This document shows, one piece after another, positions 17,438-25,176 of a stretch of DNA of 64,000 nucleotides (its first letter is position 1; each line of letters starts with the position of its first letter). Below the pieces are notes generated by a model. The model did no database searches, was not told where the DNA came from, and saw only the letters and a program-made list of their open reading frames with translations. Origin of the DNA: Candidatus Melainabacteria bacterium (lineage in GTDB: Bacteria; Cyanobacteriota; Vampirovibrionia; Obscuribacterales; Obscuribacteraceae); assembly GCA_012965515.1 (NCBI GenBank), contig DTSE01000164.1, forward strand, positions 1 to 64,000. The letters are read 5' to 3'. The translations under genes and the position numbers were made by a program.

Positions 17438-18631
17438 ATGAAAATTCAAGAAATTGAGATTTCGGGCTACAGGTCTATTGACGACCTTAAACTTGAACTG
17501 AACAATGTGACAGTTCTGGTCGGCGCAAATGGCTGCGGGAAAAGTAACATCTATCAGTCGATAAATCTGATCGCTGCGGCTGCGACGGGGCAATTTGCGC
17601 GTCGCATCGCAGAAGAAGGCGGCATGCAGTCGATACTATGGGCCGGTGATAGAGGGAAGCGAGAGCAGATAAGGACGCGTCTATCAGTCGGATTTGAACA
17701 GCTTCGCTATTCAATAGAGTTTGGGCTGATGCCGGCTAGTGAACGACTGGCCGGTTTCGTCTATCCGGACGGCACGCAAGATACGGAACTCTCAATCTTT
17801 AAGCTTGATCCAGATATCAAAGAAGAGACTGTTGAAATAAAAACTGGTAAGCGTCTGGTTAATCTGTTGAAGAGGAAACGGTCGATTGTCCTAGCGAAAG
17901 ATATCGACGGCGAGGAACAGGCTTATCCAGATGCTCTTGGTGAAAGTGAATCTGTTCTATCCGAACTACGAGAACCACATAGATTTCCGGAGCTCGCGAA
18001 TCTCAGATCTCAGTTTCTTCGCTGGCGTTTCTATCATGATTTTAGAACTGATCTACAGTCTCCCATCAGAGATCCACAACTAGCAACGATGACGCCGGTT
18101 CTTAGTCACGACGGCAGAGATCTGGCGGCAACACTTGCAACAATTCGTGCGGTAGGAGACAAGGCGAAGCTAAATCATTCGTTGAAAAAGGCCTTCCCTG
18201 ATTCCGATGTAATTGTTGAGGAAGAAGGCGGTACAGTTCATATGCGTATGAGTTTTCCAGGAGTAACAAGAGAACTCGAGGCTAGAGAACTTTCTGATGG
18301 AGTTCTGCAGTATCTGTGTTTGCTTGCCGCTTTGTTGACGCCGCGCCCGTCACCATTTATGGTGCTCAATGAACCCGAGACAAGTATACATTTTGATTTG
18401 CTGAAACCAATGGCGGATTTAATTACTGCGGCATCGGAGAATTCTCAGATACTACTCACCACTCACTCGAAAGAACTCGCACGAGCGCTTCGACTCAAAG
18501 GGGCGACAACATATGAGTTGGAAAAGATTGATGGTGCGACTTGTCTGCGGGGAAAGCGCAAGGTAAGAACGCAGGAACAAAAGATGCGTGGTTGGCTTGG
18601 TCCAGAAACAGATGTAATGGAAGATGAGTGA
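17438..18631 (+). CDS. SMC/RecF-like AAA ATPase, first of a tandem paralogous pair
   Basis: The 397-residue protein has Walker A GANGCGKS (residues 29-36), an ABC-type signature ELSDGVLQYL, Walker B MVLNEPETS and the switch His in TTHSKELA. This is the minimal 'predicted ATPase' (COG4637-type) layout, with no TOPRIM nuclease domain as in OLD proteins. The middle insert holds REPHRFPEL and WRFYHDFRTD, conserved in its neighbour. In this copy the usual SLHPDL after Walker B reads SIHFDL. It probably dimerises on ATP; the substrate is unknown. Its stop overlaps a possible GTG start of the second ATPase. Confidence 0.85.
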   Translation: MKIQEIEISGYRSIDDLKLELNNVTVLVGANGCGKSNIYQSINLIAAAATGQFARRIAEEGGMQSILWAGDRGKREQIRTRLSVGFEQLRYSIEFGLMPASERLAGFVYPDGTQDTELSIFKLDPDIKEETVEIKTGKRLVNLLKRKRSIVLAKDIDGEEQAYPDALGESESVLSELREPHRFPELANLRSQFLRWRFYHDFRTDLQSPIRDPQLATMTPVLSHDGRDLAATLATIRAVGDKAKLNHSLKKAFPDSDVIVEEEGGTVHMRMSFPGVTRELEARELSDGVLQYLCLLAALLTPRPSPFMVLNEPETSIHFDLLKPMADLITAASENSQILLTTHSKELARALRLKGATTYELEKIDGATCLRGKRKVRTQEQKMRGWLGPETDVMEDE

Positions 18632-18639
18632 GGGGTGTG

Positions 18640-19773
18640 GTGAGTCTCGCTGAATTCTCAATTCAAAACTATCGCTCCATTAAGCATGCTTGGCTGAAGC
18701 TTGATCGCATGAATGTGATTGTCGGTCCAAATGGATCAGGCAAAAGTAATTTATATCGAGCTATTTATTTACTCGCCTCAACCGCATCTGGAAGATTAGC
18801 CAGGAATGTTGCGGAAGAAGGTGGTATGTCATCCGTTCTTTGGTCTGGAAAAGGTTCAGACAATAAGAAGGTTGAGCTTTCTGTGAAACTAGACAATTTG
18901 CAATACGATCTTACTTTTGCCGCCTTGTCACCTTCTCTTGGTGGTGGCAAAGATTCTGTTTTCAAAAACGATGTTGAAATTCTCAAAGAGGAGATTAACA
19001 TCAAAAGCGGACAGTCTCGCTCTTGCATTTTGAAACGTAGCAAGGCAGCTATCTACTTGGTTGATGCAAAAGGCACCAAGGTTGATTACACCATGCGCGT
19101 GCCTGCCAATGAATCGATTCTCTTTGGGATCAGAGAGCCTCACCGTTTTCCACAACTTTCTGCTCTCAGGCAAGAGTTCTTAAGTTGGCGATTCTATCAT
19201 CACTTTCGTACTGACAAAGAATCTCCTTTGAGAAAACCTCAGTTGGCCGTAATGACACCAAGAATGGCTCACGATGGGAGTGACTTCGTTTCTGCAATTG
19301 CCACTATTCTTCAGTGGGGAGACAGCAATGGGTTGCTCAATAGTTTGGATGATGCGTTTCCCGGTTCCGATTTAGCAATATCCGAGTCGTCTTCTGGTTT
19401 GCGTGTCTTGTTCAAGTCTTCTGATTTACGCAGAGCATTTCAGACGCATGAATTGTCCGATGGCACGCTCCAATATTTGTGTTTGCTCGCGGCTCTTTAT
19501 AGCTTGGATCCACCATCTGTGTTGGTAATTAATGAACCGGAGACTAGTCTTCATCCTGATCTAAGCGAACCGTTGGCCCGACTCCTGGTAGCAGCTTCGC
19601 ATCGCTCACAAGTTTGGATTACTACGCATTCTCGGGATCTTGCCGACTCGATCGTAGAGCTTGGAGGATATTCTCCGATTGAGCTTGAGAAAGTGGAAGG
19701 TGAAACCAAATTGCTGGGCGTAAGTATGGGGCGTTATCGAGAGTCCTTTCAACAATCGGAAGACGACGACTAG
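18640..19773 (+). CDS. SMC/RecF-like AAA ATPase, second of a tandem paralogous pair
   Basis: From a GTG at 18640 the protein is about 377 residues (alternative GTG starts lie at 18628, overlapping the previous stop, and 18637). Motifs are Walker A GPNGSGKS (29-36), signature ELSDGTLQYL, Walker B LVINEPETSLHPDL and TTHSRDLA. It shares REPHRFPQL, WRFYHHFRTD and LAVMTPRMAHDG with the preceding ATPase, so the two arose by tandem duplication and then diverged considerably. No nuclease or membrane domain is seen. Two co-transcribed ATPases may form a heterodimer; a role in DNA repair or defence is possible but unproven. Confidence 0.85.
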   Translation: MSLAEFSIQNYRSIKHAWLKLDRMNVIVGPNGSGKSNLYRAIYLLASTASGRLARNVAEEGGMSSVLWSGKGSDNKKVELSVKLDNLQYDLTFAALSPSLGGGKDSVFKNDVEILKEEINIKSGQSRSCILKRSKAAIYLVDAKGTKVDYTMRVPANESILFGIREPHRFPQLSALRQEFLSWRFYHHFRTDKESPLRKPQLAVMTPRMAHDGSDFVSAIATILQWGDSNGLLNSLDDAFPGSDLAISESSSGLRVLFKSSDLRRAFQTHELSDGTLQYLCLLAALYSLDPPSVLVINEPETSLHPDLSEPLARLLVAASHRSQVWITTHSRDLADSIVELGGYSPIELEKVEGETKLLGVSMGRYRESFQQSEDDD

Positions 19774-20408: not shown

Positions 20409-21404
20409 TTAAGGCATTACAACACTTGGCTCAGTTGCCGGCGGTGGTGAATATCCGCTGTTGCCGACAGGCTGGCTCACAGTTGGCTGTGACGGCACCA
20501 CTGGAGCTGGTTGTGGTGATACAGGTTGCCCAGGAAGTGTGCTTGTGGAGCTCGTTGTCGTTCCTGTCGCTGTGCCATCAAAGTTGGCTGGCGCCGTCTT
20601 GCTCATCATTGTGAATCCAAAGAATGCAATAACAATCACCACAACCAGCACAGCAATCATCATATAGCCGGCGTTGTTGTTAGCAGGCATATCACGATTT
20701 TGAAACTGATAGTTTGCATTTGGATCTTGCACAGGAAGACCGGATGCAGATGAAGATGTCATTGCGGATTGATAGTTGTTGTAGTTTTTCATCCACTGCG
20801 GTTGTTCGCCAGGCGGTTTTGCCGGTGCTGCAGGCGGGCGCGAACCGGGAGTGGGGATAGCATTGAGGTCGCTGGCACTAACGCTTGCCGGATTTGAGTT
20901 ACCCATCCCTGGTGTGGGGATCGCATTCAACTGATCTGCAAAACTCATTCCACCCGCTGCAGCTGGTGCTGGTGCCGGCGCCGGTGCTTCCGGTGCTTTT
21001 GCGGCACTGCCTGGAGTTGGAATCGCATCAAGCTGACTCTTGGTGATTGACGCGGCCGGCTTCTGACCGGGGGTTGGGATGGCATTTAGCTGGTCGGCCA
21101 TATTAGGCTCCGCTTTTCCTGGCGCCGGAACTGGCGCAGGGGACGGCTTTGCGCCCCCCGGTGTGGGAATAGCGTCCAGAGCCGATTTCATGTTTTGCTG
21201 GCTACTGGCTGGTTTTGGGGCTGGAACTGGTGCAGGAGCAGGTTTTGCCGCTGCGGCTGCTGGAGAACCCGGGGTTTTAATAGCATCAAGCTGTGCTTTC
21301 ATGCTATCGCCTGCTGCGGCGTGACCCTTGCAATGTGCGTCTGGGGATGCCGGATCGGCGACTTTGGATTTCCCACAAATTGAACAGGTATTTGCGTCAG
21401 TCAT
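20409..21404 (-). CDS. Single-pass membrane protein with zinc-finger-like N-terminus and six 'L-D/N-AIPTPG' repeats
   Basis: I recognise no family. The 331-residue protein starts with a possible zinc site (C7, C10, H24, C25, H28). A long Pro/Ala-rich region carries six copies of L-D/N-A-I-P/K-T-P-G (near residues 39, 76, 106, 125, 159 and 180) separated by PAPAPVPAP-like spacers. One transmembrane helix follows at about 248-265 (MMIAVLVVVIVIAFFGF), then a Thr/Pro-rich tail. With no signal peptide, the repeats should be cytoplasmic and the tail exported. Evenly spaced identical motifs in a flexible chain suggest docking sites for a partner. Divergent from the reductase at 21667. Confidence 0.75.
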   Translation of the reverse strand: MTDANTCSICGKSKVADPASPDAHCKGHAAAGDSMKAQLDAIKTPGSPAAAAAKPAPAPVPAPKPASSQQNMKSALDAIPTPGGAKPSPAPVPAPGKAEPNMADQLNAIPTPGQKPAASITKSQLDAIPTPGSAAKAPEAPAPAPAPAAAGGMSFADQLNAIPTPGMGNSNPASVSASDLNAIPTPGSRPPAAPAKPPGEQPQWMKNYNNYQSAMTSSSASGLPVQDPNANYQFQNRDMPANNNAGYMMIAVLVVVIVIAFFGFTMMSKTAPANFDGTATGTTTSSTSTLPGQPVSPQPAPVVPSQPTVSQPVGNSGYSPPPATEPSVVMP

Positions 21405-23980: not shown

Positions 23981-24225
23981 CCAGAAAAGCCTTTGGTCAG
24001 TACGTTTGGAATGGTTTTGCGACGTGGTGTGGCACCCCCTCGCGGCGTTTAATCTTCGTGACCAACTTCTGACCGCACACTGCCTTAGAGTGCAAGTACC
24101 CCTCAACTAAGCAGCTGCCGAAGTCGCGTTAATGTGATTTCCAGCACATGGCGTTGAGATTCGACTGCCCGGATACGCCTTCCGAAGCACAGTCGTCCAT
24201 ACAAAACACTTATGAGGAAACCTTG

Positions 24226-25176
24226 ATGACATACGAGAGCCATCGCGGTGGAGAAGTACCCACTCAACAGCCCGCACCTCAACTCAATTTGCTTGATGTG
24301 AACAGCAATCGCAATTCCAATCGTAACGATAACACCAATAACAATCGCAACGACAATCGCAACGACAATACATTGATTAACGCACCGCGTCAGGATGTCC
24401 GAGTAAATACAGGACCAACAACGTCTGATTCGCGCTCCAGTGCCGTTTCCGGATCTTCATCGAGCTCTGATGCCCGAGGCGGTTCCGCACAAATCAATGA
24501 CAATCGTACTGAAAACGTCAAATATTATGGTGGCAGCGCTACTGCACCGAATGTCTATGCCAGCGGCTTTTGCAGTGAAGGCGGAAGCACTGGAGTTTAC
24601 GTTCTAGGATTTGGTGTGAGTGGTGGCAAAACCACCCTCAATCAGGAATGTCTCAAGAAAGAAGATTTCCAGCGCACAATGCAACAGGTCTGCAAAGCGA
24701 GCGACGAACATGCGATGGTTGCGTTGCAGTCATTTCAGCTAGAACTGCAGGCTGGCAATCAGTTGGGAACCAATCCCTATGCACCTGGCGTCGGCGCCGG
24801 TGCACGCAGAATCGCTAACGCCAAGGCTGAAGTTTCACTTCAATTGGATAGCGTCTGTTCCACCTTGGCGAACAGTGCCGATGCAACCATGGACTCAATG
24901 AAGAAGTTGGGTCTGGATAAGCCAATCATCATTCCTGCGCAAGCAAGTAACGCCGCTGATCAAAGGCTGATTGACGAAGCCGTCGCCCAAAAACTAGAAG
25001 AATTCAACAACCGTGTCACGAAGGTTGAGCAGAGATCGACTGAGGTGAATGTCACCACCATTAACGTATTGCCGGAGCCACCAAAACCTGTACATCGTCC
25101 TCAACCAGCCAGGCCGGCAAAACCTGCGGCTCCTGCGCCTGCAGATGATTGCCCTCCCGGCGCAAAGAAGAAATAA
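24226..25176 (+). CDS. Asn-rich low-complexity protein of unknown function
   Basis: A GAGGAAA site 5 bases upstream favours the ATG at 24226 over the longer start at 24148, giving 316 residues. I recognise no family. Residues about 25-50 are a low-complexity Asn/Arg/Asp tract (NSNRNSNRNDNTNNN and similar), and a Ser-rich segment follows. The middle (FCSEGGSTGVYVLGFGVSGGKT) is Gly-rich and strand-like; the C-terminal third is helical and ends in a Pro/Ala tail. There is no signal peptide. It is 24 bases upstream of a LysM-containing gene, and the two probably form an operon. Confidence 0.65.
   Translation: MTYESHRGGEVPTQQPAPQLNLLDVNSNRNSNRNDNTNNNRNDNRNDNTLINAPRQDVRVNTGPTTSDSRSSAVSGSSSSSDARGGSAQINDNRTENVKYYGGSATAPNVYASGFCSEGGSTGVYVLGFGVSGGKTTLNQECLKKEDFQRTMQQVCKASDEHAMVALQSFQLELQAGNQLGTNPYAPGVGAGARRIANAKAEVSLQLDSVCSTLANSADATMDSMKKLGLDKPIIIPAQASNAADQRLIDEAVAQKLEEFNNRVTKVEQRSTEVNVTTINVLPEPPKPVHRPQPARPAKPAAPAPADDCPPGAKKK
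24298..24375 (+). repeat. Asn-codon repeat tract
   Basis: AACAGCAATCGC, AACGATAACACC, AACAATCGC and AACGACAATCGC are related short units repeated in frame. They encode the Asn/Arg/Asp tract of the gene starting at 24226. Units are imperfect, so length variation between strains is likely but cannot be seen here. Confidence 0.6.

Follow-up and report, generated by a model that had tools for sequence, protein, structure and literature searches.

The window, that is, the whole stretch of 64,000 nucleotides that was analyzed, carries on its minus strand an open reading frame at 20409–21404, which was confirmed and encodes a bitopic protein of 331 aa (Table 1). Elsewhere in the window, two adjacent paralogous AAA_21 (AbiEii/RecF-like) ATPase genes overlap by a few bases at 17438–19773 (+), and 24148–25176 (+) encodes a protein that has an Asn/Asp/Arg-rich repeat (NRNDNTNNNRNDN) and is rich in Pro/Ala at its C-terminus. 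A plasmid search found no plasmid.

Table 1. Features of the gene for the 331-aa protein, with positions in the window.
Feature	Position	Strand	Basis
Gene, bitopic 331-aa protein	20409..21404	-	Homologue searches and alignment
Cys/His head CSICGKSKVADPASPDAHCKGH, residues 7–28 (putative zinc site)	21321..21386	-	Alignment; C7, C10, C25, H28 retained if a head is present
Motif copy 1, variant LDAIKTPG, residues 39–46	21267..21290	-	
Motif copy 2, LDAIPTPG, residues 76–83	21156..21179	-	
Motif copy 3, LNAIPTPG, residues 106–113	21066..21089	-	
Motif copy 4, LDAIPTPG, residues 125–132	21009..21032	-	
Motif copy 5, LNAIPTPG, residues 159–166	20907..20930	-	
Motif copy 6, LNAIPTPG, residues 180–187	20844..20867	-	
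Second conserved element PQWMKNY, residues 202–208	20781..20801	-	Alignment; AF2 predicts a helix start (203–216)
TM helix, residues 247–267 (AF2 helix 244–267)	20604..20666	-	Sequence and AF2
Pro/Ser/Thr-rich C-terminal tail, poorly conserved	20412..20603	-	Alignment

The earlier note had described six near-identical, regularly placed motifs in this protein. Five copies match L[DN]AIPTPG exactly, and the first is a variant. The copies start at residues 39, 76, 106, 125, 159, and 180, and the resulting gaps of 37, 30, 19, 34, and 21 residues are irregular. When the 6.3-Mb genome was searched for the DNA pattern encoding AIPTPG, all 5 matches fell inside this gene, and the reversed control gave 0. 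One TM helix was recognized, consistent with the single-pass architecture proposed before; it is preceded by the PQWMKNY element, which the earlier note had missed. In the AF2 model, only the PQWMKNY helix and the TM helix are ordered with any confidence, and the remainder is predicted to be largely disordered. A Lys residue directly after the TM helix leaves the charge rule ambiguous for topology. A cytoplasmic position of the repeat region is plausible, because HD-GYP and receiver proteins carry the same motif.

The Cys/His head is missing from several homologues. Where it exists, C7, C10, C25, and H28 are kept in the alignment, and position 24 holds N, S, or Q instead of His in other homologues. 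Judged from these sequences, the head is plausible as a CCCH zinc site that is optional in the family; the zinc-binding set suggested earlier would keep these four residues but loses H24. Pfam and NCBIfam scans of the protein returned sub-threshold noise and no family, and a literature search for the motif strings found no mention of them, which agrees with the previous view that no such family has been described.

To compare motifs and spacers, we collected homologues of the protein. A single-sequence search detected it in 13 of 60 genomes, the window's own included; among the 13 are all same-genus genomes but the least complete one. A profile search placed its family in about 17–18 of the 50 genomes of the taxonomic family; the weaker matches of that search were other motif-bearing proteins. 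The alignment showed that the motifs and the PQWMKNY element are retained, whereas the spacers change in both sequence and length. Identity with the 331-aa protein was counted for 12 homologues, and motif identity exceeded spacer identity in every one (motif/spacer 0.96/0.83, 1.00/0.78, 0.92/0.58, 0.79/0.64, and 0.87/0.52). For distant members, the values were 0.69/0.24, 0.75/0.27, 0.71/0.28, and 0.66/0.26, a contrast inflated by the anchoring of the alignment on the motifs; the same-genus pairs, whose alignment is the least ambiguous, carry the argument. Homologues with motifs no better conserved than their spacers were sought and not found. Distant homologues hold one to seven motif copies. 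Within the gene, copies 2–6 use different codons at 4–7 of the 7–8 shared residues; by these synonymous differences, the copies are old and have been kept constant at the protein level. As the motif outlasts the spacers, differs synonymously between copies, and recurs in unrelated proteins of the order, the sequence comparisons lend good support to the earlier idea that selection acts on it, in the sense of a functional short motif; its role as a docking site, as proposed before, is putative. Comparison of gene neighborhoods showed no neighbor of this gene that is conserved beyond the genus and would hint at a partner; conserved blocks surround the HD-GYP and receiver genes.

The distribution of the motif was determined by pattern searches with reversed patterns as controls. 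L[DN][AS]IP[TSA]P matched in 46 of the 50 genomes of the family, with ~181 matches against 11 for the reversed pattern (summed over the table), and in the sister family (3 genomes), which belongs to the same order, with 6 matches against 0. The 141 genomes of the class outside the order yielded 7 matches against 1, and the longer form L[DN][AS]IPTPG gave three single matches in 291 other genomes of the phylum. A further form, WG[DN]LD[AS]IPTP, was sought in ~85,000 species genomes and returned 40 stretches, on Obscuribacterales-type contigs only. These are labeled Obscuribacterales, Obscuribacter, Melainabacteria, Cyanobacteria, or plain bacteria, apart from two isolates labeled Proteobacteria and Actinobacteria, which match at the same positions as two family members (G014 and G010). 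These results show that the motif is restricted to the order Obscuribacterales and stays near background elsewhere in the class and phylum.

Within the order, the motif occurs in unrelated architectures: the family of the 331-aa protein, a GAF/HD-GYP protein, receiver-TM proteins, a MshEN/PilB-like protein, and a TM-TPR protein. A core carrier is the HD-GYP protein, whose gene is present in 48 of 53 genomes of the order and in 22 of the 22 good ones. It holds one to three copies in the linker, mostly of the WG[DN]LD[AS]IPTP form, and WGxLDxIxxP or the strict core was found in each of the 28 full-length orthologues that were checked, with at least one WGxLDxI-type copy per protein. In the alignment, W, G, L, D, I, and P show little or no variation, whereas the surrounding linker is not conserved. 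The AF2 model places the motif in a low-confidence linker and predicts no intramolecular docking.

In the receiver-domain carriers, one to five copies are combined with a TM helix at the C-terminus. Their receiver domain shows a weak but clear match to the CheY/CheB/TadZ kind and is paralogous to the receiver in a CpaE/TadZ-like ATPase that occurs throughout the order. This protein of ~395 aa with a receiver and a MinD-type ATPase (L273, L276, L280, and further relatives) shows striking conservation among the genomes of the order. The short receiver-TM protein of the window's own genus lacks the motif, whereas the 331-aa protein there has six copies. A large protein free of Pfam hits (scanned in a 1,333-aa copy) is encoded directly upstream of the motif-bearing receiver gene on the same strand (L083:3780-7778 (+) and L088:2466-5528 (+)). 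It is present in 18 of ~23 such loci and is a candidate partner.

A large MshEN carrier, with a PilB-like N2 segment where complete, is found in the window's own genome on contig C477 with two motif copies (L078:3-5216 (-)) and in relatives (L079, L085). In these proteins of 1,700–1,900 aa, two MshEN domains of the c-di-GMP type are accompanied by Pro/Ala linkers of great length, by motif copies, and by a VPEWMN element. A complete frame encodes only the N2 part of a PilB/GspE ATPase; the carrier is apparently a PilB-like protein without the ATPase core. The TM-TPR carrier holds a six-fold tandem array in one genome (G020, L086). At L086:5329-8430 (-), six near-identical tandem 12-residue repeats ALDAIPSPVDKS precede a TM helix and a TPR array; this array is a recent amplification of the same motif. 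Single matches in other proteins, among them a VWA protein, may be due to chance. The membrane-tethered carriers thus vary by genus: the 331-aa protein in the window's genus, receiver-TM proteins in the genus of Ca. Obscuribacter phosphatis, and the TM-TPR protein in G020. A constant copy in the HD-GYP protein, together with membrane carriers that differ by genus, fits a scaffold role that can be filled by different proteins.

Outside the core, a hydrophobic residue was found at positions -5 to -3 in 143 of 145 copies, against 23–36% of spacer triplets; in the WG form, it is a Trp at -3. This anchor, L at 0, and I at +3 would lie on one face of a short helix ending in P-T-P. The upstream context varies by family (WG versus KxQ/ADQ), and families with different contexts may not bind the same site. 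VP[EQ]WM was considered as a second shared motif and rejected: among the contexts read, it is a conserved element only in the family of the 331-aa protein and the MshEN protein, and its genome-wide enrichment over the control is weak.

We propose that Obscuribacterales use the LDAIPTPG-like unit as a private short linear docking motif and that the 331-aa protein, tethered to the membrane, acts as a multivalent scaffold for a partner shared with the other carriers, a reading to which we assign a probability of about 0.6. The motif would consist of the hydrophobic anchor 3–5 residues upstream followed by L-[DN]-[AS]-I-P-[TSA]-P, set in Pro/Ala-rich linkers that the models show as disordered. On a flexible arm that probably faces the cytoplasm, the 331-aa protein would display as many as about seven copies, and it would concentrate the partner at the membrane by avidity. 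The HD-GYP, receiver-TM, and MshEN/PilB-like carriers would either recruit this partner as well or compete for it; the signaling network would probably be tied to c-di-GMP and pilus functions. As fits a docking motif, the unit is more conserved than the disordered linker flanking it and recurs above chance in non-homologous proteins. Peptide binding, a single shared partner, the topology, and the c-di-GMP/pilus link are inferred. Counting against the network, the 331-aa protein occurs in only about 17–18 of the 50 family genomes, and the receiver-TM proteins of its own genus are devoid of the motif; network membership would thus be fluid.

Other explanations of the repeats were weighed against this reading. 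The carriers that point to pili also raise the possibility that the motif is a localization tag for the Tad or type IV pilus machinery or for the cell pole, with a specific pilus ATPase or a CpaE/TadZ protein as its partner. The motif-bearing receivers are paralogous to that of the order-conserved CpaE/TadZ-like ATPase, and another carrier combines MshEN with PilB N-terminal domains. However, no pilus gene was recognized beside the gene for the 331-aa protein or the HD-GYP gene, and the case is one of guilt by association; we consider such a tag unlikely. A phosphorylation site, in which a Ser/Thr kinase modifies the threonine of T-P, an FHA-like domain reads it, and the scaffold acts as a multi-site sensor, has a still smaller chance of being correct. 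T or S occupies this position in most copies (T73 S9 A3 of 85; T42 S6 A6 of 54), and a gene near one homologue encodes a Ser/Thr-kinase-like protein whose Cys-rich head is similar in style. Nevertheless, Ala is found instead in 9 of 139 copies, and the search pattern itself conditions these counts. The positions of L, I, and the two P residues vary no more than this one, and the upstream hydrophobic residue would be left unexplained. The kinase-like protein itself (L089:3462-5885 (+)) lies two genes from the homologue, and its N-terminal head is of the CxxC type, like that of the 331-aa protein.

Least probable, and disfavored, is that the repeats arose by shuffling or slippage of a low-complexity linker, have no specific ligand, and were spread among proteins by recombination. 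The repeats do sit in Pro/Ala-rich low-complexity linkers, and the near-identical tandem array in the TM-TPR protein (G020, L086) shows that duplication occurs. This explanation is contradicted by the synonymous divergence between copies, by the retention of the motif where spacer similarity is lost, and by the HD-GYP protein, of which no full-length orthologue checked across the order lacks the motif. Returning to the docking motif, a more far-reaching version is a private multivalent network in which one undescribed binding domain reads the anchor plus L-D/N-A/S-I-P-T-P in the core HD-GYP protein, CpaE-type receiver membrane proteins, the MshEN/PilB-like protein, and dedicated scaffolds such as the 331-aa protein, and clusters c-di-GMP and pilus signaling at the membrane; we put this forward tentatively, as possible but on balance doubtful. 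An order-wide motif that is present in every full-length orthologue checked of a core signaling enzyme and amplified in membrane scaffolds would define a signaling hub in an almost unstudied non-photosynthetic cyanobacterial lineage, and the motif peptide would be a direct bait for finding the receptor.

Short linear motifs common to several unrelated proteins are commonplace in eukaryotes; in bacteria, to our knowledge, few are known. The conserved C-terminal peptide of FtsZ serves as a docking peptide for SepF/FtsA/ZipA. Like the motif, it is short, conserved, and placed behind a disordered linker, with a superficially similar L-D-(x)-I-P core; the motif differs in having an extra residue between D and I, in lacking F-L, and in being internal and repeated. 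The FtsZ tail in the window's genome reads ILDIPEFLKSR plus a few residues, and ILDIPEFL tails in 11 genomes of the order, the window's included, rule out that the motif is the FtsZ-tail sequence (LDIPxFL). The C-terminal tip of SSB (DDIPF-type) is likewise a short acidic/hydrophobic peptide that recruits several proteins, but it must be C-terminal and ends in Phe, whereas the motif is internal and ends in P-T-P-G.

Among membrane proteins, GltJ/AgmX of Myxococcus, a polarity/motility scaffold with a zinc finger, a GYF domain, and a TM helix, shares the zinc-type head and membrane tether with the 331-aa protein, which lacks a GYF domain. GYF as the reader of the motif was rejected, as GYF_2 (PF14237) was found in 9 of 53 genomes of the order and was not detected in the window's genome or genus. 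Another likeness is to ZitP of Caulobacter crescentus, a bitopic zinc-finger polarity regulator of 311 aa with a CXXC-x19-CXXC zinc_ribbon_5 (PF13719) and a periplasmic DUF3426 (PMC5182063). Both proteins are bitopic and similar in length, with an N-terminal Cys-based zinc-type head, a linker, and a single TM helix. Binding of a polar hub (PopZ) is a further mark of the ZitP family. Membership of the ZitP family was rejected: Pfam gave no zinc_ribbon_5/zf-MJ0042 match up to E=1 and no DUF3426 match in the 331-aa protein, whose tail is Pro-rich. Its head is CxxC...CxxH, in contrast to the CXXC-x19-CXXC of ZitP, and its distinctive part is the motif array, of which we know no counterpart in ZitP. 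ZitP is a membrane-bound recruiter of other proteins, and it is to this type of architecture that the 331-aa protein may be likened.
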